The notes beneath the pieces were generated by a model. It did no database searches, was not told where the DNA came from, and was given only the letters and a program-made list of their open reading frames with translations. Shown here piece after piece: positions 2,026 to 19,748 of a stretch of 64,000 nucleotides of DNA (position 1 is the first letter of the stretch; the number at the start of each line of letters is the position of its first letter). The position numbers were made by a program, and so were the translations under genes. Source of the DNA: Terfezia claveryi (taxonomy: Eukaryota > Ascomycota > Pezizomycetes > Pezizales > Pezizaceae); assembly GCA_015179025.1 (NCBI GenBank), contig WHUX01000154.1, positions 1 through 64,000 of the forward strand, read 5' to 3'.

Positions 2026-2034
2026 ATTAGATAC
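2026..2034. repeat. Left target site duplication (9 bp) of the large DNA element
   Basis: The sequence ATTAGATAC lies directly before the left end of the 16-kb element. The same nine bases follow its right end at 18105-18113. The match falls exactly at the boundaries defined independently by the inverted ends, so chance is unlikely. Confidence 0.8.
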
Positions 2035-2190
2035 TGTTCTCGGTCCCAGACTCTTGGCGGTGATAACTTTTATCTGCAAGAGTCTGGTACTAAACTGCTC
2101 CGAAACTGCACGCGCTAGCATCTCCGAGCGTTTTGAGCTCGGAGATGCTAGCGCGTGCATAGCCTGTTTTCGGAGCTACTAGCGTTGTTT
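2035..2190. repeat. Left terminal inverted repeat region with a nested hairpin
   Basis: This is the left end of the DNA element. After the TG terminus come CCAGACTCTT and its reverse complement AAGAGTCTGG about 22 bases later. A perfect 23-bp stem follows (2107-2129 against 2137-2159) with a 7-base loop, enclosed by CTCCGAAA and TTTCGGAG. The right end has the same order of blocks. Confidence 0.75.
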
Positions 2191-2289
2191 TGAGCTGCAT
2201 ATTTCATAAGCATACACAATTGTCATAACGACAACAGCAGAATAAATGTCTACCAAAGCATTCGTTCGGGATTTCGTTCATTTGAGAAT

Positions 2290-2424
2290 GTATTATCTCT
2301 AGTTTTGAGAGTTGGACAGGATTTAGTTTGACTCGATTTGGTATTATCTTTAGTTTTGAGAGTCGGACAGGATTTGGTTTGACTCTTGATTTACAGAGGC
2401 ACTAAGAGTCTGGTCATGAGAGCA
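2290..2424 (+). repeat. Degenerate hairpin-satellite copies and an internal end-like motif
   Basis: Two diverged copies of the GAGAGTCGGAC-type unit lie at about 2300-2395. They run into an internal copy of the right-end motif, ACTAAGAGTCTGGTCATGAG, ending at 2424. This matches the right terminus at 18081-18104 and the internal copy at 4156-4179. Confidence 0.55.
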
Positions 2425-2429
2425 AGGAT

Positions 2430-2697
2430 ATCTACTGTCTTGGAGCAGCGATTTGATCTCGGAGCAAGATTTTCTGTGGCTATACTAAGTAACCTATAAG
2501 ACTAGAAAGCTAGAAAGCTTAGGTTTTCAATGGGTTGGTCTTAGTTGGAGGGGTTATGAGTATCAACTATCTACTATATTATAGTCTCGAGGCAGTAACT
2601 TGATCTCGGAGCAGCATTTACTTTGGCTATTCTAAGTAACCTATGAGACTAGAAAGCTAGAAAGCTGCTCCGGGCTCAGGTCTACATTTTAATGGGT
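2430..2697 (+). repeat. Two diverged units related to the 178-bp array
   Basis: Two segments share the core 'actagaaagctagaaagct' and the phrase 'atgggttg' with the 178-bp repeats at 4832-5614. The copies are about 155 bp apart and clearly older or more diverged than that array. Confidence 0.5.
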
Positions 2698-3905
2698 TGG
2701 TCTTAGTGAAGGTGCCTTATATGCTTGCTCCGGACAATATAGGCTTCCTCGGTGGTGTCTTATATGCTTGCTCCAGGCAATATATGCTTGCTCGGTGCCT
2801 CATATTGCTCCGGGCAACATATGCTCGCTCAGTGCCTTATATGCTTGCGCCGGACAATATTGGCTTGCTCGGTGGTGTCTTATATGCTTGCTCTAGGCAA
2901 TATATCCTTGCTCGGTGCCTCATATGCTTGCTCCGGGCAATATATTCTTGCTCAGTGCCTTATATGCTTGTTCCGGGCAATATAGGCTCGCCCAGTGCCT
3001 TATATGCTTGCTCCAGACAATATTGGCTTGCTCGGTGGTGTCTTATACGCTTGCTCTAGGCAATATGTGCTTGCTCGGTGCCTTATATACTTGCTCCGGA
3101 CAATATTGGCTTGCTCGGTGGTGTCTCATATGCTTGCTCCGGGCAACATAGGCTCGCTCAGTGCCTTATATGCTTGCTCCAGACAATATTGGCTTGCTCG
3201 GTGGTGTCTTATAGGCCTGCTCCGGGCAATATATTCTTGCTCAGTGCCTTATATGCTTGCTCCAGGCAATATATGCTTGCTCGGTGCCTCATATTGCTCC
3301 GGGCAACATATGCTCGCTCAGTGCCTTATATGCTTGCGCCGGACAATATTGGCTTGCTCGGTGGTGTCTCATATGCTTGCTCCGGGCAACATAGGCTCGC
3401 TCAGTGCCTTATATGCTTGCTCCAGACAATATTGGCTTGCTCGGTGGTGTCTTATATGCTTGCTCTAGGCAATATATCCTTGCTCGGTGCCTCATATGCT
3501 TGCTCCGGGCAATATATTCTTGCTCAGTGCCTTATATGCTTGCTCCAGGCAATATATGCTTGCTCAGTGCCTCATATGCTTGCTCCGGGCAATATAGGCT
3601 TTATAGGAGCAAGCCTGTATTTCCCGGAGCAGGCCTATAAGGCACCGAGTGAGCGTATATTGCCTAGAGCAAGCATATAAGACACTACCGAGCAAGCTAA
3701 TATTGTCTGGAGCAAGCATATAAGACACCACCGAGCAAGCCAATACTGTCCGGAGCAAGCATATAAGGCACTGAGCGAGCCTATGTTGCCCGGAGCAATA
3801 TGAGGCACCGAGCAAGCATATATTGCCTGGAGCAAGCATATAAGACACCACCGAGCAAGCCAATATTGTCCGGAGCAAGCATATAAGGCGCTGAGCAAGT
3901 ATCTA
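2698..3905. repeat. Foldback minisatellite of 40-43-bp units
   Basis: About 20 head-to-tail units run forward from about 2711 to 3600. Each contains 'atatgcttgctcc', then 'caatat', then 'gcttgctcggtg'. At about 3600 the orientation flips and about seven more units continue as reverse complements to about 3900. The array can therefore fold into a long imperfect hairpin. It is bounded by exact 22-bp inverted copies of the element end at 2035-2056 and 3906-3927. Open frames on both strands come from the repeat and are not genes. Confidence 0.85.
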
Positions 3906-4179
3906 CAAGAGTCTGGGACCGAGAACAGTGTTCCGGCAGTGTTCCGGAATGTTTTTGTTGAGATGTTCAAAAATCAATTTCCATTCAAAAACAAATACTT
4001 TTCTATATAGTATTACATATTCTGCTCCGAAGCCACTAGCGTATTGCATAGTTTCCACGCTAGTTCCTCCGAGCTCGGAGGAACTAGCGTGGCAATTTCG
4101 GAGTAGGTTACTACCAGACTCTTAGCCGTAGCACTAAAATAATTACAGCGTAGGCACTAAGAGTCTGGTCACGAGAGCA
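3906..4179. repeat. Internal extra copy of the element end
   Basis: Positions 3906-3927 are an exact reverse complement of the left terminus. Positions 3935-4179 are a direct copy, at high identity, of the right-end region 17875-18104. This copy includes a perfect 38-bp palindrome at 4055-4092 centred on GAGCTC; the 17.9-kb copy has the same palindrome with a few transitions. The element therefore contains more than two end sequences. Confidence 0.75.
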
Positions 4180-4180
4180 A

Positions 4181-4726
4181 TTACGCTCGGTGCGTTTGTG
4201 GGTAGTAGCTTGTAATATTGAGAGTCGGACGGATTTTGGTTCGACTCTCAATATTACATTACGCTCGGTGCCTTTGTGGGTAGTAGCTTGTAATATTGAG
4301 AGTCGGACGGATTTTGGTTCGACTCTCAATATTACATTACGCTCGGTGCGTTTGTGGGTAGTAGCTTGTAATATTGAGAGTCGGACGGATTTTGGTTCGA
4401 CTCTCAATATTACATTACGCTCGGTGCGTTTGTGGGTAGTAGCTTGTAATATTGAGAGTCGGACGGATTTTGGTTCGACTCTCAATATTACATTACGCTC
4501 GGTGCCTTTGTGGGTAGTAGCTTGTAATATTGAGAGTCGGACGGATTTTGGTTCGACTCTCAATATTACATTACGCTCGGTGCCTTTGTGGGTAGTAGCT
4601 TGTAATATTGAGAGTCGGACGGATTTTGGTTCGACTCTCAATATTACATTACGCTCGGTGCCTTTGTGGGTAGTAGCTTGTAATATTGAGAGTCGGACGG
4701 ATTTTGGTTCGACTCTCAATATTACA
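4181..4726. repeat. Seven-copy 78-bp satellite with an internal hairpin
   Basis: Exactly seven 78-bp units follow one another without gaps (7 x 78 = 546). The only variation I can see is one base near the start, G in units 1, 3 and 4 and C in the others. Each unit has a 17-bp inverted repeat, TGTAATATTGAGAGTCG and its complement, around a short spacer. Because 78 is a multiple of three and the unit has no stops, both strands stay open for about 190-200 codons. I do not read this as a gene. Confidence 0.9.
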
Positions 4727-4831
4727 TTCTGGGCTAGACATGGGAGAATCTATACAAAGTGTTAGATGGAAAGGTGAGAGTGGAATGAGGAAAAGTTCAG
4801 CGTTTTTATATTAACATTCCAGACTCTAGAT

Positions 4832-5614
4832 GCGGTGATGCATAGAATCATAACTATCCACTATATTATAGCTTGGGAGTGGTGATTTGACCTCAGAGGA
4901 GGCTTTTCTTTTCCTATTCATAGTGATCTATAAAACTAGAAAGCTAGAAAGCTATTCCGGACTCGAGATGTACGTACATGATGGGTTGCTCTGTTCGCGG
5001 GGGGGTTATTAGCGGTGATGCATAGGATCACAACTATCCTATATTATAGCTTGGGAGTGGTGATTTGACCTCGGAGGAGGCTTTTCTTTTCCTATTCATA
5101 GTGATCTATAAAACTAGAAAGCTAGAAAGCTATTCCGGACTCGAGATGTACGTACATGATGGGTTGCTCTGTTCGCGGGGGGTTTATTAGCGGTGATACA
5201 TAGGATCACAACTATCCTATATTATAGCTTGGGAGTGGTGATTTGACCTTGGAGGAGGCTTTTCTTTTCCTATTCATAGTGATCTATAAAACTAGAAAGC
5301 TAGAAAGCTATTCTGGACTCGAGATGTACGTACATGATGGGTTGCTCTGTTCGCGGGGGGTTTATTAGCGGTGATGCATAGGATCACAACTATCCTATAT
5401 TATAGCTTGGGAGTGGTGATTTGACCTCAGAGGAGGCTTTTCTTTTCCTATTCATAGTGATCTATAAAACTAGAAAGCTAGAAAGCTATTCCGGACTCGA
5501 GATGTACGTACATGATGGGTTGCTCTGTTTGCGGGGGGTTTATTAGTGGTGATGCATAGGATCACAACTATCCTATATTATAGCTTGGGAGTGGTGATTT
5601 GACCTCGGAGGAGG
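4832..5614 (+). repeat. Tandem array of about 4.4 units of 178-180 bp
   Basis: Units start at 4832, 5012, 5190, 5368 and 5546 with the phrase GCGGTGATGCATAG or a one-base variant. The last unit is truncated at about 5614, where the sequence changes to unique DNA before the helicase. Every full unit carries 'actagaaagctagaaagct', a palindromic GTACGTAC and a G run. No function is visible. Confidence 0.85.
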
Positions 5615-5870
5615 GGTTTTTTGGGCCAGAAATTTGGCCTTAATATTGAAATATTTATGAAGATTCTCCGAGAGCAATTGGGCTCAAGTGGATCTGTTTC
5701 TAGAGAATTGATTCACTCCACCTGTTTCGTAATAGATCTTGGGGCATGGGTATAGCGGGCTTGGCATTTTGGATTGTTGTACTCAACTGACGTTTTGCGG
5801 TCCGCTTCAATACCTGTATCAAACAGCGTACAACTCAACATCAACCCTAGACATAGGCTTCGGAGTACCT

Positions 5871-8167
5871 ATGGCATCCGAAGGTGAGGTAAGTAATAAC
5901 AGCCTCATCTTAAAATCGTTTTCCGGGGAGCTTTTCAAATGGTCGGATGAGTTGCCTTCGGACCTCTCCATTTTCGGTGGCATCAGGGCTATGATTGGGC
6001 AAGTGGCAGCGCAAACTAGCATGGCACGTGGGGTTACACTTCGAGCTATATCCTGGCAAGTCAAGGCAGCAGCCCGATTCCTAGAGGGCAAAGATCAGAT
6101 TGTTATATCTAGAACTGGGGACGGGAAGACATTCTGCTTTATATTAGCAGCTTTGTGTGCACTAGAGCAGACAATTATAGTTTTAACACCTCTGATTGCT
6201 CTACAAGATTCTCATGTGAGTTGAAGCCAAAACTCTTCCGTTCTCAGGTTAACGAGGATATACAGGTCTCGATGGCATGGAGGTATGGACTCAAGGCTGT
6301 CTCTTTGAACGCCAAATCCATTCAAGTTGATCCTACGATAGTCAGCAAAATCATTTCCGGCTATTACCAAGTCGTCTTCGTTTGTCCAGAAGTATTGACC
6401 GGGAACAATGAAATGTTTCTGAGATTCGCCAAGTCAAAGGTATTCTCTTCTCGACTGTTGGGTTTCGTAATAGATGAGGTGCATCTCTGCCATCAATGGA
6501 GGAACTTCAGAGCAGATTATACAGGTGTTGGGTTATTACGAATTTTCTTTCCCAAAGTCGCTTTCATGGGGTTATCAGCAACTATCCCTCTACATGTCCG
6601 GGGATTCATACATACAGCCCTGCGCATGCCTAAACAATGTGATCTAATACAACGATCAATTAACAGAGAGAACCTCTGTCTGTTTGCATATCCCATTCAT
6701 TCTCCATTACATAAGTTTGAGGAAATCAAGTTTTTGATACCTCGTAGGTTGATATCTATTCACTCCACTCACCAAATCAATATTCCGAAAACCATGGTAT
6801 TCGTTGATGGCCTCCGAGATGCGTGCAACATTACAACAGAGCTATCCAAGCTTATACCTAAGCATATGTTCGAAGAATATCCAGAGGCTATATTAGAGTA
6901 TAGCACTGCTATAACAAGCAAGAAAAGAGAATATAATTTGCAGAGATTCATAAAGGGTATATGTCGTATACTTGTCTGTACAGAGGCATGTGGTATGAGT
7001 ATTGATGTGCAAGATATAGAACGAATTATACAGTGGAGATTGTCCCCAAGATGCAACCTAACTACACTCTATTAACACTTCAGTCATGCTGCAAGGGACC
7101 CGGAAATCCAGGGCATTGGTATCCTTTTCTATACTTCCTACGCCGAGATTACCAGAAACCATGACAGTAATGCTCAGATTTATAAAAGAGCATGGGATGA
7201 TCCCCTTTATGAACAAGTATCTCAGGATATTATCCGCTTTGATATAGGCCTTACTTCTTCAACGGCTCTACGGTCACAGAAACGCAAAGCAGATGCACTA
7301 GGTGAGTTATTTAGTGAAGCGACCCACTCAGGTTCTGGTGCTGTTGAAGCATCGCAAGACAAACCTGGTTTTACCAAATCTGTACAACCAGGTACCTCCC
7401 AAAAGACACAAGCACTGAAGCTACCATTAATCTGCAGAGCTATACTCTCCTTTATTAATACTGCCAAGTGTAGACGGCATATCATTCTTAACTATTTCAA
7501 TGATACCTCAACACATCCTCATACCCATCCATGCTGTGATCATTGCATGCAAGATGATATCCCTTCTGAGATCAAACATTTGATTCCGATGACAGTTTAC
7601 ACATCGGGAACTGTTGTCAAAACAAAGGGAACTCGGCCTACGAAGCTACCGGAGTGCACTAAGGAGGCACTGTATGAACATATAATCACTCTGCGAAATC
7701 AGCATTGGAAGGATCAGAAAGGGAATAACAGATTTGTACCATATTCTGCGAGTGCCCTCTTAACTCAAAAAGAAACCGAAGCGATCATGGCATGAGCACC
7801 TAAGATAAAACAACCAGACCAAGTTCATCAAACTTTATTGAAAAGGCCTGCTACCTATAATGGGAAAATGAAACAAGAGTTCTTCGACCAGGTCTTTGAC
7901 GGAATCTGAACAATTGTCAACGATTAGCAGTATATAATACAAAACACTTTAGAGGACACCCAAACGCAGTCGGAACAACACCTTCCACTAACAGAGATAT
8001 TAGGGAATCCAATTCACATTAATGTGCCCATAATATCAACTGCGCAAGCCTCACAAGAATGAGTAGATTCACACAATCCCCAGCTGATAAAGAAGAGAAA
8101 AACTCGCTCAGACAAAGGAAAGAGACGAGGACCACGAAATGCAGGCACCCAAGAACAAAACCAATGA
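5871..8167 (+). pseudogene. RecQ-like DNA helicase, broken by stop codons
   Basis: This is a superfamily 2 helicase of the RecQ type, related to helicases often linked to fungal mobile elements. From ATG 5871, Walker A reads TGDGKT (about residues 82-87), preceded by a RecQ-like WQ motif. An intron follows, 6216-6265 (50 nt; an alternative acceptor at 6247 would give 32 nt). Motif II is DEVH (about residue 185) and motif III is GLSATIP. Motif VI is interrupted by TAA at 7073-7075, where the family has a glutamine. The frame then stays open through a RecQ zinc-binding region (CRR..YF..CCDHC) to TGA at 7793. Beyond that the same frame still looks coding, with stops at 7907, 7925 and 8060, to a basic KR-rich tail ending at 8165-8167. 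All four internal stops before the tail, plus the motif VI stop, are one transition away from CAA or TGG. The start is uncertain because a GGTAAGT motif follows the ATG closely. Confidence 0.8.
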
Positions 8168-8197
8168 TAGGAGAGCACAACACAAACAATCAACCAA

Positions 8198-8244
8198 GTA
8201 ATTCCGAGAGTCGAACCAAAATCCGTCCGACTCTCAAAATTACA
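8198..8244. repeat. Solo copy of the satellite hairpin between two convergent genes
   Basis: This 46-bp imperfect palindrome is the reverse complement of the hairpin inside the 78-bp satellite, with about four differences. It lies between the 3' ends of the helicase and DUF6589 genes. A 3'-end or terminator-like role is possible but only inferred from position. Confidence 0.7.
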
Positions 8245-8312
8245 AACCTCTGACATTATCTTATGCCCTTTCAGCAACTCTGTGCGATACCTTATCCCAT
8301 ACATTTATCTCA

Positions 8313-11271
8313 TCAACCCTCATTGCCCAAATCACTATCCCTTGACATGCTCAATGCATCTTCATCATCAGACATCCCGAGACTATTTATCTCAAATCCC
8401 TCCTCCTCTCTCTGTCTTTCTCGCCATCTCTCTCGACCTTCAATTCCCCATCCATACTCTACTTCACCATAATCAACATCACTATCCTCTTCATCTTCCG
8501 AATCCTCTCTAATATCAACCAAACCTATTCTTTCTTCCTCCGGGGCCATATCCATATTCTGCTCCATTTCCAAATCTATATTCTCATACTCATCACCGGG
8601 GGCCCCAGGTCGTTCTCGCAGATAACGCTCCTCCTCCTCACGGAACAGTCGATCTTCAATACATTCCGAGCTTGCATCATCGTCTCCTCTTATTCCTCCC
8701 ACTCTTTCTTTCATTATGTCATCAAGGAAGGAACCTCATGTGATTATCCGTTCACCAAGTGTAAACAGGTCCAAGGCTGGCTTCATCTCAACAGGATTAT
8801 GAACCGAACCTGCTTTCCAGCGTCCTTTTCGGAAATTACATACATCATGCTGCAAAAGCGTCCTGAAAACAACTTTACAATCCTCTTTATCGTCCATGGT
8901 TCCATGTTTATGGGAGATATCCAAAACACCTGCATACACGTAAGCTTCTTGGTACCTACGAATTTCTAGTATACTTACTAGCGAGCGGACTGATGTACTT
9001 ACTAGCGGACTGATGCACTGCCTCCTGCACCGACCGGAATAAGAATGCATTCCTGAATACTGATTTCAAAAAAAAAACCTTACTTTGCCAGTTCCTGTTC
9101 GGATTATGTTGATCTTTGACTTTTCACACCAATAACTCATTTACCTTATCAATACCCATGAATTTCATTTCTCGGCCACTCAAATTGACCAGGATATTGT
9201 TATCCCAAATATACCTGAATCTATCCATCCAAACTACCTCTTTATCGATTAACAGATTTGTAGTTGCCTTAGCATAATGATGTTTCCCAGCTCCACTGAA
9301 CCACACGCATAAAGGTTCTATATTTTTTAGCAAAGCTCCCGAGTCACCAGCACTACGAGAATCAGTATGTCTCAACTTCATATAGATATTTGCTCCAACA
9401 AAACGATAAAAATGTCTTGCAATCGGACAACTTACCTGACATTATAATGCAAGTCTCTTATCACGAAATAATGTTGCAAAAACAACAGAAAGTTCTCATA
9501 TGCTAAATCCCTTTCCCTATAAGCCACCCTCTTTATGAATGCATTCCTATCAAGCTCATCTCCGTGTCTATCCTTCTTCAAATGCTTCTCCTTCAACATT
9601 GATCCCCACTCTTTAATACCCGCGTTCTCCGCTTTCTCTCTCATAATTCTCACTGTTCTAGGAACTAAGAATCTTTGGACGACTTTCCTGCACAAATCCA
9701 CGTAATTATCTACTTTTTTCAACTCTCTCTCGAGTTCCTCCAAACAACTTGCCTTAACAATATTAGCATACTATTCTCGAAATTCCAGGTCTCTTATACC
9801 TTCAATTCTGACGCTACCGCTGCTAACGCATGTCCCTCTTCGCAGATATTAGTGAATCTCTTACAGGCATTGTATTCGGGCATCCCTGCCGTAACTCCTT
9901 TAACCACCAAAACATGCTTCAACTGACATAGAGAGCCAAGATCCATTCCATCTTCCCTTCCCCAATGTCCCCAAAACAATAAGTCTTCTGCCGCCATTTC
10001 TAAATGGAAAATCCCGTCCAGTTTTGCCAGGTAATTTAACTTGTTATGCTCAAAGTCTCTCACACGTAGCTGCTTCAATGCTGATACTTTCAACATAGTT
10101 CCCAAATCTCCCGCATGAAGAACCACTCTCCCAGCCAACCTTATCGAACTCAATCCTATTTGCTCCAACAGTTCATCAATCACTTCCGCACTGCCTTGAA
10201 TGGACGTCTCATCCTTCTCCAAGGTATCCAAGGTATTAACATCCATTCTTACACACAGAATCCTATGAATCCATTCAAACGATGGTCGGGTGTGCCCAGG
10301 TTCCCTTGCAGCCAACTCCTGCATGACTATGGGAAAATACTTCCACAATATGTCGCTCAAATGGACAACTAACCTATTGGGCATATGCTCTGCATACGAG
10401 TCCTTTGACAACAACCAATATTTATCGATTTTCGTATAGTCTGGACAACTGGCAAATAAGAACCGTCCGTCTAGGCCAAGAACCCCTTCTTCATATGCCT
10501 GAAGATCCATATAAATCCTCATCTTCTCATCAAATTCTCTCCAACTATTATCTCTAAGATCCGCTCCAATCGTGGTCTCGCCATCTGCCTCTTCTCCATT
10601 GTCCAAACCTTCTACCGATCTCAATCTCTTCTCTGGGCTTTCTTCTGTCTCGACTCTGACCACTGGATGAATTTTCTCAGGTGCTTCTGGCTTCGGTATA
10701 TATAGGAACCACATAGCAGCGCAGGTATACTGAGTCAGCACCCTTTGATTTTTCACACTTTGTCCTGTTTTATTCTCAAACATCGCATTATTATCCCACA
10801 TAAGCCCAAACGCATGTCCCTGAATGATACGCTTCTTAATCCGTTCTCCATTCGCGCTTCCCATAGCTTTTATAGTATCGCATATAGTGGTATATCCAAC
10901 ACTCAGGCCCACTCGATTTAAAACACCGATCACCCTTTTAGGAACCCCGCAAGCCTGCAGATAATATCCAATCAGGGTCTGTAAACTGTTGCACATCCTG
11001 GATCTCCCAAATGCAATCATGCTCATAACTACAGTACTTATGAATAATTTATTTCTACTCTTTCTACCCCTTTCACCCCCACCACCACCACTCTTCTTCC
11101 TTTTTCTCGAATTCGAATTGTCTAGCATCGTATCCTTGTCGCTTCCGACTGAGCATACTCCATTGATGAGCTCATATAGGCGCGGACAGTTCTGACGAAA
11201 CCTCCCACCAAGCTCTTCAAAGTTGAAATTGGTTGCAATGTCAGGCGTTATCGCCTGTACCTGGCATTTAG
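8313..11271 (-). pseudogene. DUF6589-type protein, 3' part (candidate transposase)
   Basis: This is the larger, downstream part of a gene split by the Gypsy element. From memory I recognise the fungal domain of unknown function DUF6589. Diagnostic blocks are MWDNN, HAGDLGTML, FHLEMAAEDLLFWGHWG and a C-terminal NLSGREMKFMGIDKVNELL. Introns fit at 9799-9753 (47 nt), 9435-9371 (65 nt, GAG acceptor) and about 9129-9060, all keeping phase. Joined to the 5' part, the total is 1,045 codons with one internal stop, TGA at 8736-8738, probably a former TGG. The C-terminus is acidic (residues DEEDSD near the end). Invariant-looking acidic residues (WD, GD, HLE) would suit an RNase H-fold transposase, but that is inference. 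A BED or zinc finger is not seen. Confidence 0.7.
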
Positions 11272-11276
11272 CAATG
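11272..11276. repeat. Target site duplication of the Gypsy element (left copy)
   Basis: CAATG here is repeated at 17420-17424 directly outside the other LTR. A 5-bp duplication is normal for Ty3/Gypsy integration. Confidence 0.9.
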
Positions 11277-11791
11277 TGTAACGACGGCTCTAGGGACAAG
11301 GCGACCAAGGGGTACGCCGGGAAGAAGGCAGAGGCTAGGGCGAGACACATGTAGGAACGCTACGTGTGTGACTAGGGGAAGGCTGGGACGGGGGGGCAAG
11401 GGCAAGGGGCAAGAGGGGCAGAGGGCAAGGGGCACGAGATACGCGGAGGCAGTTGCCGCGTGTGTCGGAGGGGGGCAGCTGTGCTGCAGAGCTATTCATA
11501 GGACAAGGCAAGACGAGGGGGTGTACAAGGGAGGTACACCTTCGCGGAGAGACAAGGTCCTGTATTTGGTATACAAGACGTTGGATGGGGATCCAATGAG
11601 AGGGCGGAGAGAGCAAGCTATATATACAGGCTTCCTTCCTGGCCAAGGCCACCGGAAGGAATAAGGTTCCCAAGACCCCTTATCTCGGGAACAGAGATAA
11701 CAACGATATCAATCAATCAATCAACAATAACGAGAGTCGGACAGAATCCCGTCTGACTCTCAAACCTGGCTAGGAAAGGACGGTTGTGACA
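11277..11791 (-). repeat. 3' LTR (515 bp)
   Basis: This LTR aligns end to end with 16905-17419. It contains a palindrome of the GAGAGTCGGAC...GTCTGACTCTC type at about 11731-11760. It also has 'tatatatacagg', which could serve as a promoter element on either strand. Confidence 0.95.
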
Positions 11792-11803
11792 CTATCCCCC
11801 TTT
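11792..11803 (-). promoter_or_regulatory. Polypurine tract
   Basis: On the minus strand AAAGGGGGATAG abuts the 3' LTR, the expected place for the plus-strand primer of reverse transcription. Confidence 0.6.
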
Positions 11804-11968
11804 AGGCTCGGAGCCCCAGCGACGTAAGGCGAGGCGAAAAACAACAAACAAACAAGACAGGCGAATAACCAATAACCCATAACACAACCCCAACACCGGA
11901 CAACCTGACAACAATAGAAACAACAATCATAATTCCAACTCCAAATCAACGAAGACAAGACAAAAATA

Positions 11969-13516
11969 TCATTCAGCTGGGCGAGGCTTGAGAGGGTAAC
12001 GCTGGTGGAATAGGGTAACCAAATCCTGCGTATTCTCCAAGTCCTCTGTGGGTTGCCAGGTAGTCTCCTCGTCCCCTACCCACTTGACCTTATACTGAAC
12101 TCGCCCATAGCGTTTTCTGGAGTCCAGTACCTCCTCAACCTCCCACTCCTCTTCACCTGCGATCACCACTGGAGGAGGTGGGGGGTGCTTTTGCCCGGGA
12201 AGGGGATCGTCGGCGGCGGGCTCGATCTCCGAGACATGAACGACCGGATGGCGCTTGATATCCTTAGGAAATCCCAGCCGGTAAGCATGAGTGCCCACAG
12301 CTGCTAACACCTCATAGGGGCCTAGGAACTTGTGATCCAACTTACGAGAGGGTCGTTCTGTCCGGAAGTGTCTGCTAGAGAGCCATACCTTGTCTCCTGG
12401 TTGGTATTTGGGGGCTGGTAACCTAGACCCGTTGGCATATTCTGCTTGTCTGACCTGAGCATAACCCAACTCAGTCTTCAGGGTAGAGTGGAGTTCAGAA
12501 ATCTGCGTGGCGAACTCCTTGGCTGGGGCATTCTCCCTGGCCTTGCGCAGAGGTGCTAGGGAGTCTACGAACCGAGGGTGCCAGCCATAATTGGCCAGGA
12601 ATGGGGACGTTTTCAGCGACTCGGAGAACTGGTTGTTGGCGGCAAATTCGCAGGTTGCTAGCAACGAAACCCAGTTGTTCTGCTGGTAGCTGACGAAGGC
12701 CCGCAGATACTGTTCCATAATTGCATTCATCCTTTCCGATTGGCCGTCCGTCTGGGGGTGGTAAGCTGTTGACAGACGAACTTTGATCCCCAGAAGTTCG
12801 TAGAAGGCTTGCCAGAATTCTGAGGTAAACTGAGGGCCACGGTCGGACACGATCGATTCAGGGAGGCTATGGTACTGGAATACATTATTGAGGTAGAGGT
12901 TGGCTAACTCCGGAGTGGAGCAGGTATCTCGGCAAGGTATAACATGCCTCATCTTCGTCAACCGATCCACCACCATCAGGATGGCATTGAATCCCGAGTC
13001 CTTCGGCAACCCAGTTACAAAGTCCATGGTCAGGTGTTGCCAGGGCCGATCCGGGATCTCCAGGGGCTTCAAGGTTCCATAGGGGGCATGACGAGTGGGT
13101 TTTGCACGCTTGCAGATATGGCAGTTCCATATGTACTGTTCTACCTCCTTTCGCTGGTCGATCCATGTGTATTGTCTAGCTAGTAGTTCTAACGTCTTAG
13201 CCACTCTAGGGTGACCTGCAGCCAGGGTATCATGGTGTTCCTTGATCAGCTGCATCCGCAGCTCCCCTTCAGGTATATAGAGCCGATCTAGGTAGTATAG
13301 GAGGCCGTCCTGAGTGGTGCACTCGGCTAGGGAAATCTTGGTGTGACGGCGCTGTCCAGACTCCACTGCGGCGATAATTTCCTTAACCAGGGGGTCGTCC
13401 TCATATGCCTGTCTCACTAGTTGTCGGAGGTCAGCCTCAGCTTCCGCATCAGCCTCAGCCTCAGCTTCCGCAAGGGTATTGGCAGCCAGGTCGAGATTTT
13501 CAGGTTTCAGTACCAC
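11969..13516 (-). CDS. Gypsy integrase with C-terminal chromodomain
   Basis: This frame encodes the downstream part of pol. An HHCC-like zinc region (HHDTLAAGH and CHIC) precedes the DDE core with aspartates in MDFVTGLP and VSDRG and the glutamate in DGQSERMN. The C-terminus (WEVEEVLDSRKRYGRVQYKV and YLVKWVG-like sequence) is a chromodomain, which targets integration to marked chromatin in chromoviruses. Its frame differs by one base from the RT frame upstream. The break lies at a run of six G at about 13550, where a one-base change joins the frames. The first ATG here is therefore probably not a real start; the domain would be made as part of a Gag-Pol polyprotein. Confidence 0.9.
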   Translation of the reverse strand: MVLKPENLDLAANTLAEAEAEADAEAEADLRQLVRQAYEDDPLVKEIIAAVESGQRRHTKISLAECTTQDGLLYYLDRLYIPEGELRMQLIKEHHDTLAAGHPRVAKTLELLARQYTWIDQRKEVEQYIWNCHICKRAKPTRHAPYGTLKPLEIPDRPWQHLTMDFVTGLPKDSGFNAILMVVDRLTKMRHVIPCRDTCSTPELANLYLNNVFQYHSLPESIVSDRGPQFTSEFWQAFYELLGIKVRLSTAYHPQTDGQSERMNAIMEQYLRAFVSYQQNNWVSLLATCEFAANNQFSESLKTSPFLANYGWHPRFVDSLAPLRKARENAPAKEFATQISELHSTLKTELGYAQVRQAEYANGSRLPAPKYQPGDKVWLSSRHFRTERPSRKLDHKFLGPYEVLAAVGTHAYRLGFPKDIKRHPVVHVSEIEPAADDPLPGQKHPPPPPVVIAGEEEWEVEEVLDSRKRYGRVQYKVKWVGDEETTWQPTEDLENTQDLVTLFHQRYPLKPRPAE

Positions 13517-13530
13517 CTGATTCTGGTACT

Positions 13531-15735
13531 TCAGCCTTTCATCCCCCCTTTGGGGAGATCTCCTGATCTCCTGGTCAGTGCATCCGGCTTACCCCCAGCC
13601 TTTCCCGGCCGATACCTTATCTTGAAGTTAAACCGAGAGAGGAATTCCGACCACCTAGCCTGTCGGCGATTTAGCAATTTGGTGGTTGTGAAGTACTCTA
13701 GGTTCTTATGGTCAGAGAGGACCTCGATAACCCCCTTTGCCGATTCCAGGTGTGGTCTCCATTCCTCGAATGCTCGCACAATGGCCATTAACTCTTTATC
13801 ATAGATTTCATAATTACACTCCACCGGGGAGTGCTTTTTGGAGAAATAGGCCACTGGGTGGAGGACTCCATCGACATACTGGGACAGGATTCCAGCGGAG
13901 ACATAGTCAGAGGCATCGGTTTCGACGATACACTCGCTGTTGGGGTCGAAGTGGGCCAGGATCGGGGCTGAGCAGAAGGCTTCCTTGAGTTTCTCGAAGG
14001 CAGATTGGGCTTCCAGACCCCACTGGAAGCGTTGGCCCTTTTCCATGCCCTTGGTCTTGGTTAATGCTGTCAGTGGTGCCACGATCTTCGAATATCCCAG
14101 AATGAACCAGCGATAGAAGTTAGCAAAACCCAGGAAGGCCTGTACATCCTTGAGGTTGGCTGGAGTTTCCCACTCCTGGATCGCAGCAACCTTCGCAGGG
14201 TCCATCTGGATGCCCTCCGTGGTGATAATTAGCCCCAGATACTTGACCTTCTGCACATGGAACTCGCATTTTTCCGGCTTCAGATATAACCCAGCTCCCT
14301 CCAGCTTCTCCAGCACTTGTCGGACGTGGATCTTGTATTCTGCTAGGGTATCCGAGTAAATGAGGATATCGTCCAGGTAGGCGGTGCAGAATACATCCAG
14401 AAAGTCCCGCAGAGTATCATTGATAAAGTGCTGAAAAGAGGCGGGGGCGTTGGTTAAGCCGAAAGGCATCACATTATACTCAAAATGGCCATATCGCGTC
14501 CGGAAGGCAGTTTTCCACTCCTCCCCCTCGGCGATCCGTACCAGGTTGTAAGCCCCTCTTAAATCCAGTTTGGTGAACCATTTGGCCTTGGAGAGCCTGG
14601 CTAATGTCTCCTGGATTAGGGGTAGGGGGTACCTGTTTTTGACCGTTATCTCTTTTAGGCCCCGGTAATCGACACACAACCGGAGAGAGCCGTCCGATTT
14701 CTTCACGAAAAGCACTGGGGCACCCGCTGGTGAAGAGCTATGGCGAATGAAGCTCTTGTTGAGGTTTTCCTCCAAGTACTTTTTTAGGGCTTCCAGCTCT
14801 ACTCGGGACATTCCATAGAGGGGTCCATAAGGGGGGGTCTTGCCCTCTACCAGCGGAATTGTGTGGTCATATGGTCGATGGGGGGCAAGCTTTTCCGCGG
14901 CTTTTTCCAAAAATAGGTCAATGAAATCGTGGTATTCGTCTGGGACCAGGGATTTCCACTCATCCTTAGACCTTGTCTTGTTAATCTCCAGATTGATCTC
15001 ATAAATTGAGAGAGTATGCGCCTTGAGCTTATACCTCCTGGTGAGATAAGCGAAGGCCCCTGCTCCGATAAAGTTAATATTCAGGGGTTTCACGGGGGTG
15101 GGGGATATCGGGGAAGCTAGGGGAACAGGGTTGTCAATATTGATGTGTGCGACGGTTTGGTGTACTACCTGGGCAGGGTCCTCTACCGGGGGGGGTAGTG
15201 CACATAACCCCTTAACGGCAGTTCGTGGGGTACCGCAGTGCCTCTTGCAATACCCACTGTTGAAAGTCAAGGTGTAAGAGCCAAAGTTAACGGAGACGTC
15301 ATGCATTCGGAGCCAAGGAATCCCCAGAACAATGGGGTATTTGAGCTTGGTCACAAACATCGGTAGACTCTCCGAATGGTCCCTAATGGCACTGGGCAGG
15401 CAGGCAAGATCAGTGATAGCCCCAGAAGAGATAGGGCGGCCATCAATAATATCGAGAAGGCGGGGGGTCTAGAGTTTGGCTGTTGGTATAGAGTTTTTAC
15501 TGACGAAGGTCTGATCAATGAAGGCTATCCCCGAAGCACCACAATCTATGAGAGCTGATGTTACCACTGTTTTACCATTAAATTTAACAGTTATTGGTAC
15601 TACAAAATACTCGCCAAACAAGCGAGATTCATCAACGGACATAGGTGCGGGTAAAGAAAACGCAGACAAAGATAAATGACCCTGGGCAGGTCCCTTGCTA
15701 GTGTCAGTAACTAGGCAAGGGACTCCCCTTTTCCC
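13531..15735 (-). pseudogene. Gypsy pol: protease, reverse transcriptase, RNase H (interrupted)
   Basis: After the gag overlap the pol frame encodes an aspartic protease with LIDCGASG, then reverse transcriptase with the catalytic YLDD in FCTAYLDDILIYSD, then RNase H (TDASDYVSAGIL, YDKELMAI, SDHKNLEYF). A TAG at 15469-15471 interrupts the frame between the protease active site and RT; the same frame resumes at once. The frame ends at 13531 because of a one-base shift in a G run just before the integrase. Both breaks are single-base events, so they may be mutations or base-calling errors. Confidence 0.9.
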
Positions 15736-16868
15736 GACTCTTCACCAACTTCTTCGATCCGTGATTCAGATATGGCGTGGGCGGCCAGGGAGCGGTTCTT
15801 GCGGAGGGGGCAAGCTGCGATAAAGTGGTCGGCCTTCCCACAGGCTATGCATAGCCCATTATTCCGGCAGCGTTCCCTCTCTTCTTGGGTCAGGCGGGGT
15901 CTGCCCGCGGATAAGTCCATAGGGGCCGGTCCACCCGCCACCAGAGAAGGGTGGGCTGGCTTGTTCGGGGGGGTTACAGGGGCCTGTGGCTGGGGGCGAG
16001 GTGTTGAAAAGGTCGATCGTGGGGGTGCTGTTGTAGGGGAGGCCTTAAGGCTGTTTCTAAACCTGGCCATTTTTTGCTCCAATCGGCTGGCCTGATCAAT
16101 GAATTCTTCAAGGGTGTGGACGTCTGGGAAGTTGATAAGTGCCTGTCTCAGTTCCACACTTAAGCCTTCCTGGAATTGATCCAGTTTGATCTTGTCACTC
16201 CATTCGACCTCCGCAGCTAGCCTAGAGAATTCAGCCACATAGGTGGCGAGGTCGGTGTTCTTTTGTCGAAGGGCTCGAAGGGCTCTTGTGGCCATTCCTT
16301 CTGGATCCGGATCCCCAAACGCTCGGTCAAGGATAATGAATAAGGCGGAAATGTCTGCTAGATTAATCCCTGTTCCCAAAACATAGGGCTGGACTTGGTC
16401 CAGAGTCTTCCCCTCCAGCAGGCCGTAAACGTAGGCGAGTTTGTGCTGGGTGGTTGGAAATTTAGCAGCATCTCCATTGAGCTTAATATTGATCGAGTTT
16501 TTCCAGGCCTTGAGGCGGGCCCGTTCACCATTAAATTTGGGTGGGGTGGGGAGGTCTTGGGTTTTGGCGGGCGTGACGGTCGCCGGTGCCTGTGCGGTTG
16601 CGGCGGCAAGGGCACAGTTGAGATTGCGAATGGTTACTCGGTCGTCTGCAAGGTCTTCTCGGAGAAGAAGGATTTCATCTTCGGCTTCTTTCAGCCTTCG
16701 TTCGGTGTTCTGGAGCTCCGCTCCTTGTTTTTCGCCAATCTTATAGGTGGCAGTGAAGATATCGATGGCCATTCGGTGGTATTCCAACAGCTGGGCAGGG
16801 TCTGAGGGTATTGGGATTTCCCTCCATGCTTGGAACCTGTCGGTGGGTAACGGGGTTGGTTCGGACAT
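15711..16868 (-). CDS. Gypsy Gag polyprotein
   Basis: ATG 16868 lies 36 bases inside the 5' LTR and gives a 385-residue protein. A coiled-coil (KEAEDEILLLREDLADDR) is followed by a retrotransposon Gag core (FNGERARLKAWKN to LRQALINF). The C-terminal CCHC zinc knuckle is CIACGKADHFIAAC, spacing C-X2-C-X4-H-X4-C. The frame stays open upstream into the LTR, but the ATG just inside the element is the natural start. Pol lies in the -1 frame. Gag forms the particle that packages the RNA. Confidence 0.92.
   Translation of the reverse strand: MSEPTPLPTDRFQAWREIPIPSDPAQLLEYHRMAIDIFTATYKIGEKQGAELQNTERRLKEAEDEILLLREDLADDRVTIRNLNCALAAATAQAPATVTPAKTQDLPTPPKFNGERARLKAWKNSINIKLNGDAAKFPTTQHKLAYVYGLLEGKTLDQVQPYVLGTGINLADISALFIILDRAFGDPDPEGMATRALRALRQKNTDLATYVAEFSRLAAEVEWSDKIKLDQFQEGLSVELRQALINFPDVHTLEEFIDQASRLEQKMARFRNSLKASPTTAPPRSTFSTPRPQPQAPVTPPNKPAHPSLVAGGPAPMDLSAGRPRLTQEERERCRNNGLCIACGKADHFIAACPLRKNRSLAAHAISESRIEEVGEESGKGESLA
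15729..15735 (-). promoter_or_regulatory. Putative -1 ribosomal frameshift site (G GGA AAA)
   Basis: Read in the gag frame, the minus strand has TCG GGA AAA, which contains the slippery heptamer G GGA AAA six codons before the gag stop. The pol frame is exactly -1 and open across this site. I did not find a clear downstream stem or pseudoknot by eye. Confidence 0.6.
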
Positions 16869-16904
16869 GACAGCGTACCAGTTAGTCAAGACGATCCAAC
16901 GTAG

Positions 16905-17419
16905 TGTAACGACGGCTCTAGGGACAAGGCGACCAAGGGGTACGCCGGGAAGAAGGCAGAGGCTAGGGCGAGACACACGTAGGAACGCTACGTATGTAAC
17001 TAGGGGAAGGCTGGGACAGGGGGGCAAGGGCAAGGGGCAAGAGGGGCAGAGGGCAAGGGGCACGAGACACGCGGAGGCAGTTGCCGCGTGTGTCGGAGGG
17101 GGGCAGCTGTGCTGCAGAGCTATTCACGGGACAAGGCAAGACGAGGGGGTGTACAAGGGAGATACACCTTCGCAGAAAGACAAGGTCCTATATTTGGTAT
17201 ACAAGACATTGGATGGGGATCCAACGAGAGGGCGGAGAGAGCAAGCTATATATACAGGCTTCCTTCCTGGCCAAGGCCACCGGAAGGAATAAGGTTCCCG
17301 AGACCCCTTATCTCGGGAACAGAGATAACAACGATATCAATCAATCAATCAACAATAACGAGAGTCGGACAGAATCCCGTCTGACTCTTAAACCTGGCTA
17401 GGAAAGGACGGTTGTGACA
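16905..17419 (-). repeat. 5' LTR (515 bp)
   Basis: This is the transcription-start LTR of the minus-strand element. Compared with the other LTR I count 15 differences, all C/T or G/A, about half in CpG context. A primer-binding site should follow at 16904 downward; I cannot name the tRNA. Confidence 0.95.
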
Positions 17420-17424
17420 CAATG
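17420..17424. repeat. Target site duplication of the Gypsy element (right copy)
   Basis: CAATG matches 11272-11276 and lies directly after the CA terminus of the right LTR. Confidence 0.9.
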
Positions 17425-17777
17425 GGTTGCTTGCAATAGGCCCCCAACTCAAGGTCTAAAATTTGCTGAACGAGCCTCCAGACACCCCCACCTAAACGCC
17501 TCTTCACTTCGGAGATTGCTGTTGCCGAGTTCTGTTTCCTTTTGCTGCTACAATTGATTACCGATACCATCCCCTTAAACACCTCCTCGACACCATTATT
17601 GTCTATGAAGGACCTTTGCTTCTCTCGCATGCGCTTTGACTTTGCTCCAAGGCATCTGGTAACAAATAGTCTGAGGTCCATGTTACTGCTTCTCAGTAAT
17701 TCACAAATCTTGAAGACCCTCGGTTCCCATATTTCCTCCTCAGCATCCAATGTAATTGCATCCCATTCACCATCCAT
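17420..17777 (-). pseudogene. DUF6589-type protein, 5' part
   Basis: ATG 17777 opens a frame that runs to the Gypsy insertion. The codons before the insertion (YCKQPI) join in frame to the codons after it at 11271 (AKCQVQAI) once the retrotransposon and one CAATG copy are left out. The combined first exon is exactly 610 codons and ends in phase 0 at the 9799 donor. This shows that the frame was open when the retrotransposon landed. The 119 codons here contain no recognised motif. Confidence 0.75.
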
Positions 17778-17874
17778 AACAGCGAACTGTATTTCTACAA
17801 TAACCTAATTCACTGATCTCCCGATGCACTTGAAGACGGTTATTGGTTCTGATTAGCAGTCTAGATTTCACCAT

Positions 17875-18104
17875 ATTCCGGGATGTTTTTGTTGAGATGT
17901 TCAAAAATAAATATTTACGTTCCAAAACAAATACTGTATTATATATTCTGCTCCGAAGCCACTAGCGTATTGTATAGTTTCTACGCTAGTTCCTCTGAGC
18001 TCGGAGGAACTAGCATGGCAATTTCGGAGTAGGTTACTACCAGACTCTTAACCGTAGCACTAAAATAATTATGCGTAGGTACTAAGAGTCTGGTCACGAG
18101 AGCA
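17875..18104. repeat. Right terminal inverted repeat region
   Basis: Read on the minus strand from 18104, the block order matches the left end: TG terminus, CCAGACTCTT, AAGAGTCTGGTA, CTCCGAAA, an interrupted palindrome centred on GAGCTC (17975-18012) and TTCGGAGC. It is also a direct copy of 3935-4179. Confidence 0.8.
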
Positions 18105-18113
18105 ATTAGATAC
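18105..18113. repeat. Right target site duplication (9 bp)
   Basis: ATTAGATAC directly follows the CA terminus of the element and equals 2026-2034. Confidence 0.8.
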
Positions 18114-18866: not shown

Positions 18867-19748
18867 ATGACATTTCATGAGAATCTGGAGCGTTCTCTCA
18901 CCTGCCCAATCTGCCTGGGGCTCTTTTCCACTACCCCACTCACCCTAAACTGCCTACACAACTATTGCTCCGCCTGCATGTTGGAGTTCTTTAGGGCTCT
19001 CGACTTTTCCAGTCCAGAATTCGAGGAGGATCTCACGCAACCTGTACCCGTTTGTCCTACCTGTAGAGCACCAATCTATAGTGTGAAGCCCAACCCCTTG
19101 CTAGGTAATATATTGTCAGACTATTTTGCCGAATACCCAGAGAAACTGAACCCAGATATCCACTACGTTGATTCAAGTAAAGCAACGGCAGTCTGCAATG
19201 ACATACTTGAGCTTTACACGCGGGGAATGATCATTCCGACGAGGGGGATAGATGGATTGATGGTTTGCATGATGCAGAGGGTGTCCCAAGAACAGTACGA
19301 AAGACACAGGGATGAAAGGCGGGGAGCAGGTATGATCTGGATTTCGCACGGAGATCCAAGCAACAATACTTCACCGGACTCTGCCTACTGGCCAGGCAAC
19401 ATTTCGCTTACCTCTGAGGAAACAATCAATGATCGTTCCGAACACCCTGAAAATATGTCTAATCTTCAGCTCCCAGAGAGCATGATACCCTATGGACCAG
19501 TCACAGGCGGATATAATTACACATCAACACGAGAATCTCTCGAGGGAGATGCTACTGGAACCCCAAGCCCAGCCACCGTGCTTCACACTGACTGCAGCGG
19601 GTCTGCAGAATTCTTTCTGATGCAGCGTTTTGACTTGTGGCGTGAGGGCGACGAAAGCTGGTCTTTAGAGGAGGTTTGGGGGAACTGGCAAACGGACGGT
19701 GTCTTTTCGGTTAATGATGATGGGCAATGGGCTTTTCACTTGTCGTAA
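18867..19748 (+). CDS. RING-finger protein, probable E3 ubiquitin ligase
   Basis: The intronless 293-residue frame starts with a C3HC4 RING domain: C13, C16, C29, H31, C34, C37, C63 and C66. The gap between the third and fourth pairs is somewhat long and acidic. RING domains bind two zinc ions and recruit a ubiquitin-loaded E2 enzyme. The remaining 225 residues have no family I recognise; they include two possible N-glycosylation motifs, of little meaning in a cytosolic protein, and a Trp-rich acidic C-terminus (WREGDESWSLEEVWGNWQ). The substrate is unknown. The gene lies about 760 bp beyond the right end of the large transposon, and no nearby gene suggests a pathway. Confidence 0.85.
   Translation: MTFHENLERSLTCPICLGLFSTTPLTLNCLHNYCSACMLEFFRALDFSSPEFEEDLTQPVPVCPTCRAPIYSVKPNPLLGNILSDYFAEYPEKLNPDIHYVDSSKATAVCNDILELYTRGMIIPTRGIDGLMVCMMQRVSQEQYERHRDERRGAGMIWISHGDPSNNTSPDSAYWPGNISLTSEETINDRSEHPENMSNLQLPESMIPYGPVTGGYNYTSTRESLEGDATGTPSPATVLHTDCSGSAEFFLMQRFDLWREGDESWSLEEVWGNWQTDGVFSVNDDGQWAFHLS

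Follow-up and report, generated by a model that had tools for sequence, protein, structure and literature searches.

Kolobok transposons duplicate TTAA at the target site, and hAT, P, and KDZ transposons produce target site duplications (TSDs) of 8 bp; neither the P element nor Hermes is known to carry a helicase gene. AcademH, of the Academ superfamily, was reportedly described by Kojima in 2020 (Mob DNA 11:15). According to the excerpts of the publications cited here, Academ elements encode a RecQ helicase (PMC3627910), AcademH elements have TSDs of 9 or 10 bp and a helicase, and AcademX elements have TSDs of 3 or 4 bp and a nuclease (PMC10045372). Hosts of AcademH are found among Basidiomycota, Ascomycota, and Mucoromycota; the domains derived from AcademH, KolobokH, or Helitron include DEAD and Helicase_C (PMC10799480). 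Putative non-autonomous Academ elements were reported in Marasmius oreades (PMC8290104). KolobokH denotes Kolobok transposons that encode a RecQ helicase and are present in fungi only, and DDD/E transposons generally have terminal inverted repeats (TIRs) (PMC9587614); Zisupton duplicates 8 bp (PMC12730594). Here, we analyzed a stretch of 64,000 nucleotides (the window) of contig WHUX01000154.1 from the ascomycete Terfezia claveryi (assembly GCA_015179025.1), in which positions 2035 to 18104 hold a transposon with a RecQ-family helicase gene and a DUF6589 gene. We assign this element, with a probability of about 80%, to the AcademH-type DNA transposons, with DUF6589 as its DDE transposase and RecQ as an accessory protein.

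Ends, target site duplications, and mobility

The inverted ends, the 9-bp repeat flanking them, the RecQ-like and DUF6589 genes in convergent orientation, and the inserted retroelement noted in a preliminary description of this DNA are all in place (Table 1). The element starts with TGTTCTCGGTCCCAGACTCT at its 5' terminus, and its other terminus reads TGCTCTCGTGACCAGACTCT inward. The TIRs (TGTTCTCG/TGCTCTCG) share the CCAGACTCTT hairpins, and the outermost hairpin at either end has the arms CCAGACTCTT and AAGAGTCTGG. Compared with 200 shuffled sequences, hairpin folding had a z score of -11.45 for the left end and -4.15 for the right end (17955-18104). The flanking 9-mer, ATTAGATAC, has two sites on the + strand of the whole window, both of them the TSD copies, and one on the - strand.

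Searching the host genome (72.6 Mb in 794 contigs) with the rightmost 229 bp of the element yielded at least 32 full-length matches, counting the query itself and the internal right end described below, and there are many matches to its left 200 bp. The TSDs were scored in 20 copies with both flanks at hand, 19 of the window's family and one (C31, whose left end was located by its right-flank 9-mer) of a second subfamily. An exact 9-bp TSD was present in 12 of them and one with at most one mismatch in 15, and there were none of 8 or 10 bp (0/20 each). When left and right flanks were mispaired as a control, 1 of 380 pairs matched with at most one mismatch, and this pair consisted of two copies on the same contig (C201), apparently with swapped flanks. 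Because the duplications recur at other copies, a chance origin of the 9-bp repeats is untenable. The five copies lacking a TSD were C773, C268, C201a, C201b, and C46, with C773, whose left end is ACATCTCG, scored as having none. The count leaves aside 13 of the 32 listed full-length right-end matches: the internal end at 4179, C323 and C16 (left-end pieces of only 22 and 52 bp), and 10 more (C597, two in C286, C46:647250, C17, C109, C2, C201:69492, C63, and C102). At the C235 and C300 loci, no transposon DNA ends were found, and the exact CCAGACTCT motif was absent from the stretches examined.

Uninterrupted sites were sought by comparing the joined flanks of 10 copies with the genome and scoring the best 40 candidates. 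The site of C297 was matched along all 120 bases. The C26 copy sits in a dispersed repeat with at least 40 uninterrupted places (97 to 98%), and this repeat made up 40 of the 42 listed rows with full junctions in one of the searches. Uninterrupted sites of C10 and C218 matched 60 bp of right flank but, on the left, just 24 bp, a length that counts the 9-bp target. The remaining 6 of the 10 copies, among them that of the window, had no uninterrupted site among the matches listed. The element is thus mobile.

Short copies also exist, which align to the window from 2035 up to 3899 and have a right end of the internal type. Their right 238 bp were identical to the internal right end of the window in 14 of 16 cases (99.6% in the other 2), which points to a recent spread as a burst. 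Within the corresponding segment of the window, positions 2711-3901 are dense in inverted and direct repeats, with arms of up to 203 nucleotides at 95%.

Two arrangements of copies were observed besides these. Copies C201a and C201b (C201:394889-397834, L021, and C201:351346-355155, L022) are inverted on one contig, and the left flank of C201a is the right flank of C201b (CGAGGCTAC), suggesting that they recombined with each other. The right flank of C412:219118-224285 (L016) is 91 to 97% similar to the right end of the second subfamily over 64 to 67 bp, and this copy is therefore probably nested inside a related transposon.

The DUF6589 and RecQ genes

A structural model of the DUF6589 core, made for a protein outside the window's clade, aligns with DDE transposases, the best P element and Hermes rows covering 277 to 287 residues at 6 to 9% sequence identity. 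DUF6589 was matched in all five full-length copies found, with in-frame stops in matches made without modeling introns. From this alignment and this presence, DUF6589 is very probably the transposase, as the preliminary description had supposed. A PDB sequence search with a five-row DUF6589 alignment gave no match at E ≤ 1, the DUF6589 proteins scanned against Pfam at E ≤ 10 showed no hAT or P domain, and the element's open reading frames (ORFs) that were scanned had no transposase domain besides the integrase of the nested long terminal repeat (LTR) element. The closest named protein is a DUF6589 protein of Terfezia boudieri (95% identity); none of the five copies here is identical to it, the best reaching 96.7%.

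In the window, residues 119-611 of protein P0001 were matched at 9797-11275, and the final stretch of the match holds one TGA. The gene is interrupted at about residue 119-123 by the LTR element, whose repeats (11276-11792 and 16904-17420) are 97% similar and which is flanked by AATG on both sides.

The helicase is related to RecQ1, BLM, and WRN chains in PDB and matches TIGR00614 (recQ_fam) with an E value of 3.8e-24, under the curated cut-off. Its reading frame meets a stop, reopens past it, and extends to about 7790. In the host genome, DUF6589 was found at 22 contig loci and the RecQ query at 24 (rows grouped by hand). A RecQ match lay within 15 kb of DUF6589 at 15 of the 22 loci, and the two genes were convergent in every one of these pairs (15/15); no RecQ match was found within this distance at the other 7 (C92, C127, C135, C325, C108, C784, and C224). 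Paired loci of a single family are not independent, and the real support comes from the diverged pairs: beyond the window's family, the paired RecQ proteins are only 26 to 58% identical to that of the window, from which divergence we judge the pairing to be old. In the second subfamily, the copy C31:24866-37963 shares the terminal motif, is flanked by TCACAAAGC and TCACAAAGT, and carries all three genes (the third is described below). These results support the helicase as a conserved part of the mobile unit.

Comparison with known superfamilies

The element resembles AcademH in its helicase (RecQ in Academ), its 9-bp TSD, its TIRs, and its ascomycete host; we consider it most likely AcademH because it has all the features stated in the excerpted Academ and AcademH descriptions. 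This match is one of helicase, TSD length, TIRs, and host, AcademH being represented here by its description rather than by transposase sequence, gene orientation, or termini. AcademX, of the same superfamily, is unlike the element in its 3- to 4-bp duplications and in having a nuclease in place of the helicase. The preliminary description had proposed an undescribed transposon type, which is not supported in view of published accounts of RecQ in Academ (PMC3627910), 9- or 10-bp duplications in AcademH (PMC10045372), and AcademH in Ascomycota (PMC10799480). It was right that no described group bears the name of DUF6589: the term was not found in the literature searched, where PF20231 gave nothing related, judged by titles.

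This last result is also what one would expect if DUF6589, RecQ, and the third gene, with a 9-bp TSD, defined a separate unnamed superfamily that resembles AcademH in helicase and duplication length only. Two further points weigh with it against our assignment, namely, that membership of Academ is based here on features other than transposase homology and that a conserved third gene goes unmentioned in the Academ excerpts, as does the alanine or valine found at a presumed catalytic position (see below). We nevertheless consider a separate superfamily unlikely, since it would make coincidental the joint recurrence of three features, RecQ, a 9- to 10-bp TSD, and a fungal host, all reported for Academ or AcademH.

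Much less probable still is that the ends are mobilized by another transposase, with DUF6589 and RecQ as passengers. The in-frame stops in the DUF6589 matches of the five full-length copies (introns not modeled) and the lack of the presumed third catalytic glutamate in the window's clade count for it and against an AcademH-type element driven by DUF6589. It is opposed by the absence of any other transposase domain from the scanned ORFs of the element, the nested LTR integrase aside, by the transposase-like fold of DUF6589, and by its pairing with RecQ in diverged lineages.

For the glutamate position, the copies were aligned against a profile built from five canonical relatives. It is alanine in C62, C6, C151, C154, and C778 and valine in C31 (n = 6), all of the window's clade, and alanine by eye in a seventh copy, C42, outside the printed alignment. 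Elsewhere, C95, of another lineage, has alanine, and C300, C268, and C127 have glutamate. The exon with this position (9007-9366 in the window, and the same exon in L009, L010, L011, L043, and L044) shows 0.11 to 0.14 nonsynonymous substitutions per site (dN) between the two subfamilies, with synonymous sites saturated, and so it was under purifying selection without the glutamate. This count covers 6 copies and 92 codons, C42 being left out (missed by the anchor pattern). There are stops in the counted exon of C62, C31, and C778, and C31 versus C778 alone gives a ratio of dN to its synonymous counterpart (dN/dS) of 0.74. That the clade functions without the canonical third catalytic glutamate is a possibility that we regard as doubtful on these sequence comparisons; if it were so, the carboxylate would be relocated, or a helicase-coupled reaction would need just two.

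The other candidates have almost no probability left. A KolobokH element would account for a RecQ helicase within a fungal DNA transposon, and it is contradicted by a 9-bp TSD of varied sequence instead of TTAA; the KolobokH gene order given in the excerpts is not matched either, the genes being convergent in all 15 pairs. A P- or hAT-like element is equally hard to credit: P element and Hermes are the best structural matches of the DUF6589 model, but this fold is common to many DDE superfamilies, the proteins scanned have no Pfam hAT or P domain, and the 8-bp TSD expected of hAT and P, as of KDZ, was seen in none of the 20 copies. Mutator-like elements were rejected, since scanning the ORFs and proteins against Pfam gave no match to a MULE transposase model.

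These results connect DUF6589, to which Pfam assigns no function, with both a transposase fold and the architecture of a transposon that carries a helicase, and DUF6589 genes in fungal annotations can therefore be read as likely transposon genes. With its multiple copies, clean 9-bp TSDs, uninterrupted sites, and short mobilized copies, the right ends of which are identical in most of those compared, the system lends itself to testing why a RecQ helicase is present in some cut-and-paste transposons.

Structure of the window copy and a possible mechanism

The window copy is incomplete, an internally deleted derivative. The genome contains four other full-length copies of 13 to 14 kb (C151, C154, C6, and C42), which align to window positions 4180-11276 and 17420-18104, with long pieces at 94 to 98%, and whose left ends are 93 to 98% similar to that of the window. 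Between the left end and the 78-bp array, they carry 5.6 to 6.2 kb of different sequence. In C151, this stretch has ORFs of 299 and 433 residues without Pfam matches above the curated cut-off, and both are found in all four copies. The 299-residue ORF also occurs in the second subfamily (C31, C778, and C792) at 31 to 36% identity, about 18 kb away from RecQ in C778 and C792. The statement that the element has only two real genes consequently holds for the window copy and fails for the full element.

TABLE 1 Features of the transposon and its flanks in the window
Feature	Position	Strand	Remarks
TSD, left copy (ATTAGATAC)	2026..2034	.	Outside the left end
Left end	2035..2184	+	Starts TGTTCTCGG; of the two subterminal hairpins, one is CCAGACTCTT...AAGAGTCTGG and the other a long palindrome rich in GC
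Non-autonomous-type segment	2035..4179	+	Left end plus second, internal right end; in place of 5.6-6.2 kb with gene 3 in the four other full-length copies
Internal right end	3942..4179	-	89% similar to the outer right end
78-bp tandem array	4180..4728	.	Units start ATTACGCTC; common to full-length copies
178-bp tandem array	4832..5614	.	Common to full-length copies
RecQ-family helicase gene	5739..7075	+	DEAD and Helicase_C domains (PF00270, PF00271); two overlapping ORFs
Presumed transposase gene (DUF6589), central and 3' part	9007..11275	-	PF20231, E 8.8e-24
Nested LTR retrotransposon	11276..17420	-	gag, reverse transcriptase, RNase H, integrase with chromodomain; within the DUF6589 gene, no part of the transposon
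DUF6589 gene, 5' part	17409..17777	-	P0001 residues 1-123
Right end	17876..18104	-	Reads TGCTCTCG inward; subterminal hairpins with the CCAGACTCTT motif as at the left
TSD, right copy (ATTAGATAC)	18105..18113	.	Outside the right end

We rejected the internal right end at 4179 as a true boundary, that is, a 2.1-kb element beside unrelated DNA, because the flank there has only ATTA in common with ATTAGATAC and because the other full-length copies carry the 4180-11276 sequence within their own 9-bp duplications. The bases right after the internal end are ATTACGCTC, which occurs seven times at a spacing of 78 bp through the array. Most likely, a short copy inserted in this array, and the two left ends, then direct repeats, recombined, which would have deleted the left 5.6 kb. 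The LTR element would have split the transposase gene afterwards.

In the mechanism that we propose, DUF6589 would bind, as a DDE transposase, the paired subterminal CCAGACTCTT hairpins at either end and cleave at the TGYTCTCG termini, with the two aspartates of LDN and GDQ as catalytic residues. Joining to a target cut with a 9-base stagger, followed by repair, would leave the 9-bp duplication. The RecQ helicase would have an accessory role, most likely in unwinding the hairpin-rich ends or in the repair of donor and target sites. A third protein also belongs to the full element, and the short non-autonomous copies would be mobilized through the same ends.

The third gene (or two genes) absent from the window copy lies at 1183-2082 and 2686-3987 of L047. 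The direction of the 299-residue ORF is opposite to RecQ in the window's family and the same as RecQ in the second subfamily. Directly right of the transposon, positions 18867-19748 of the window hold an ORF with a C3HC4 RING finger.
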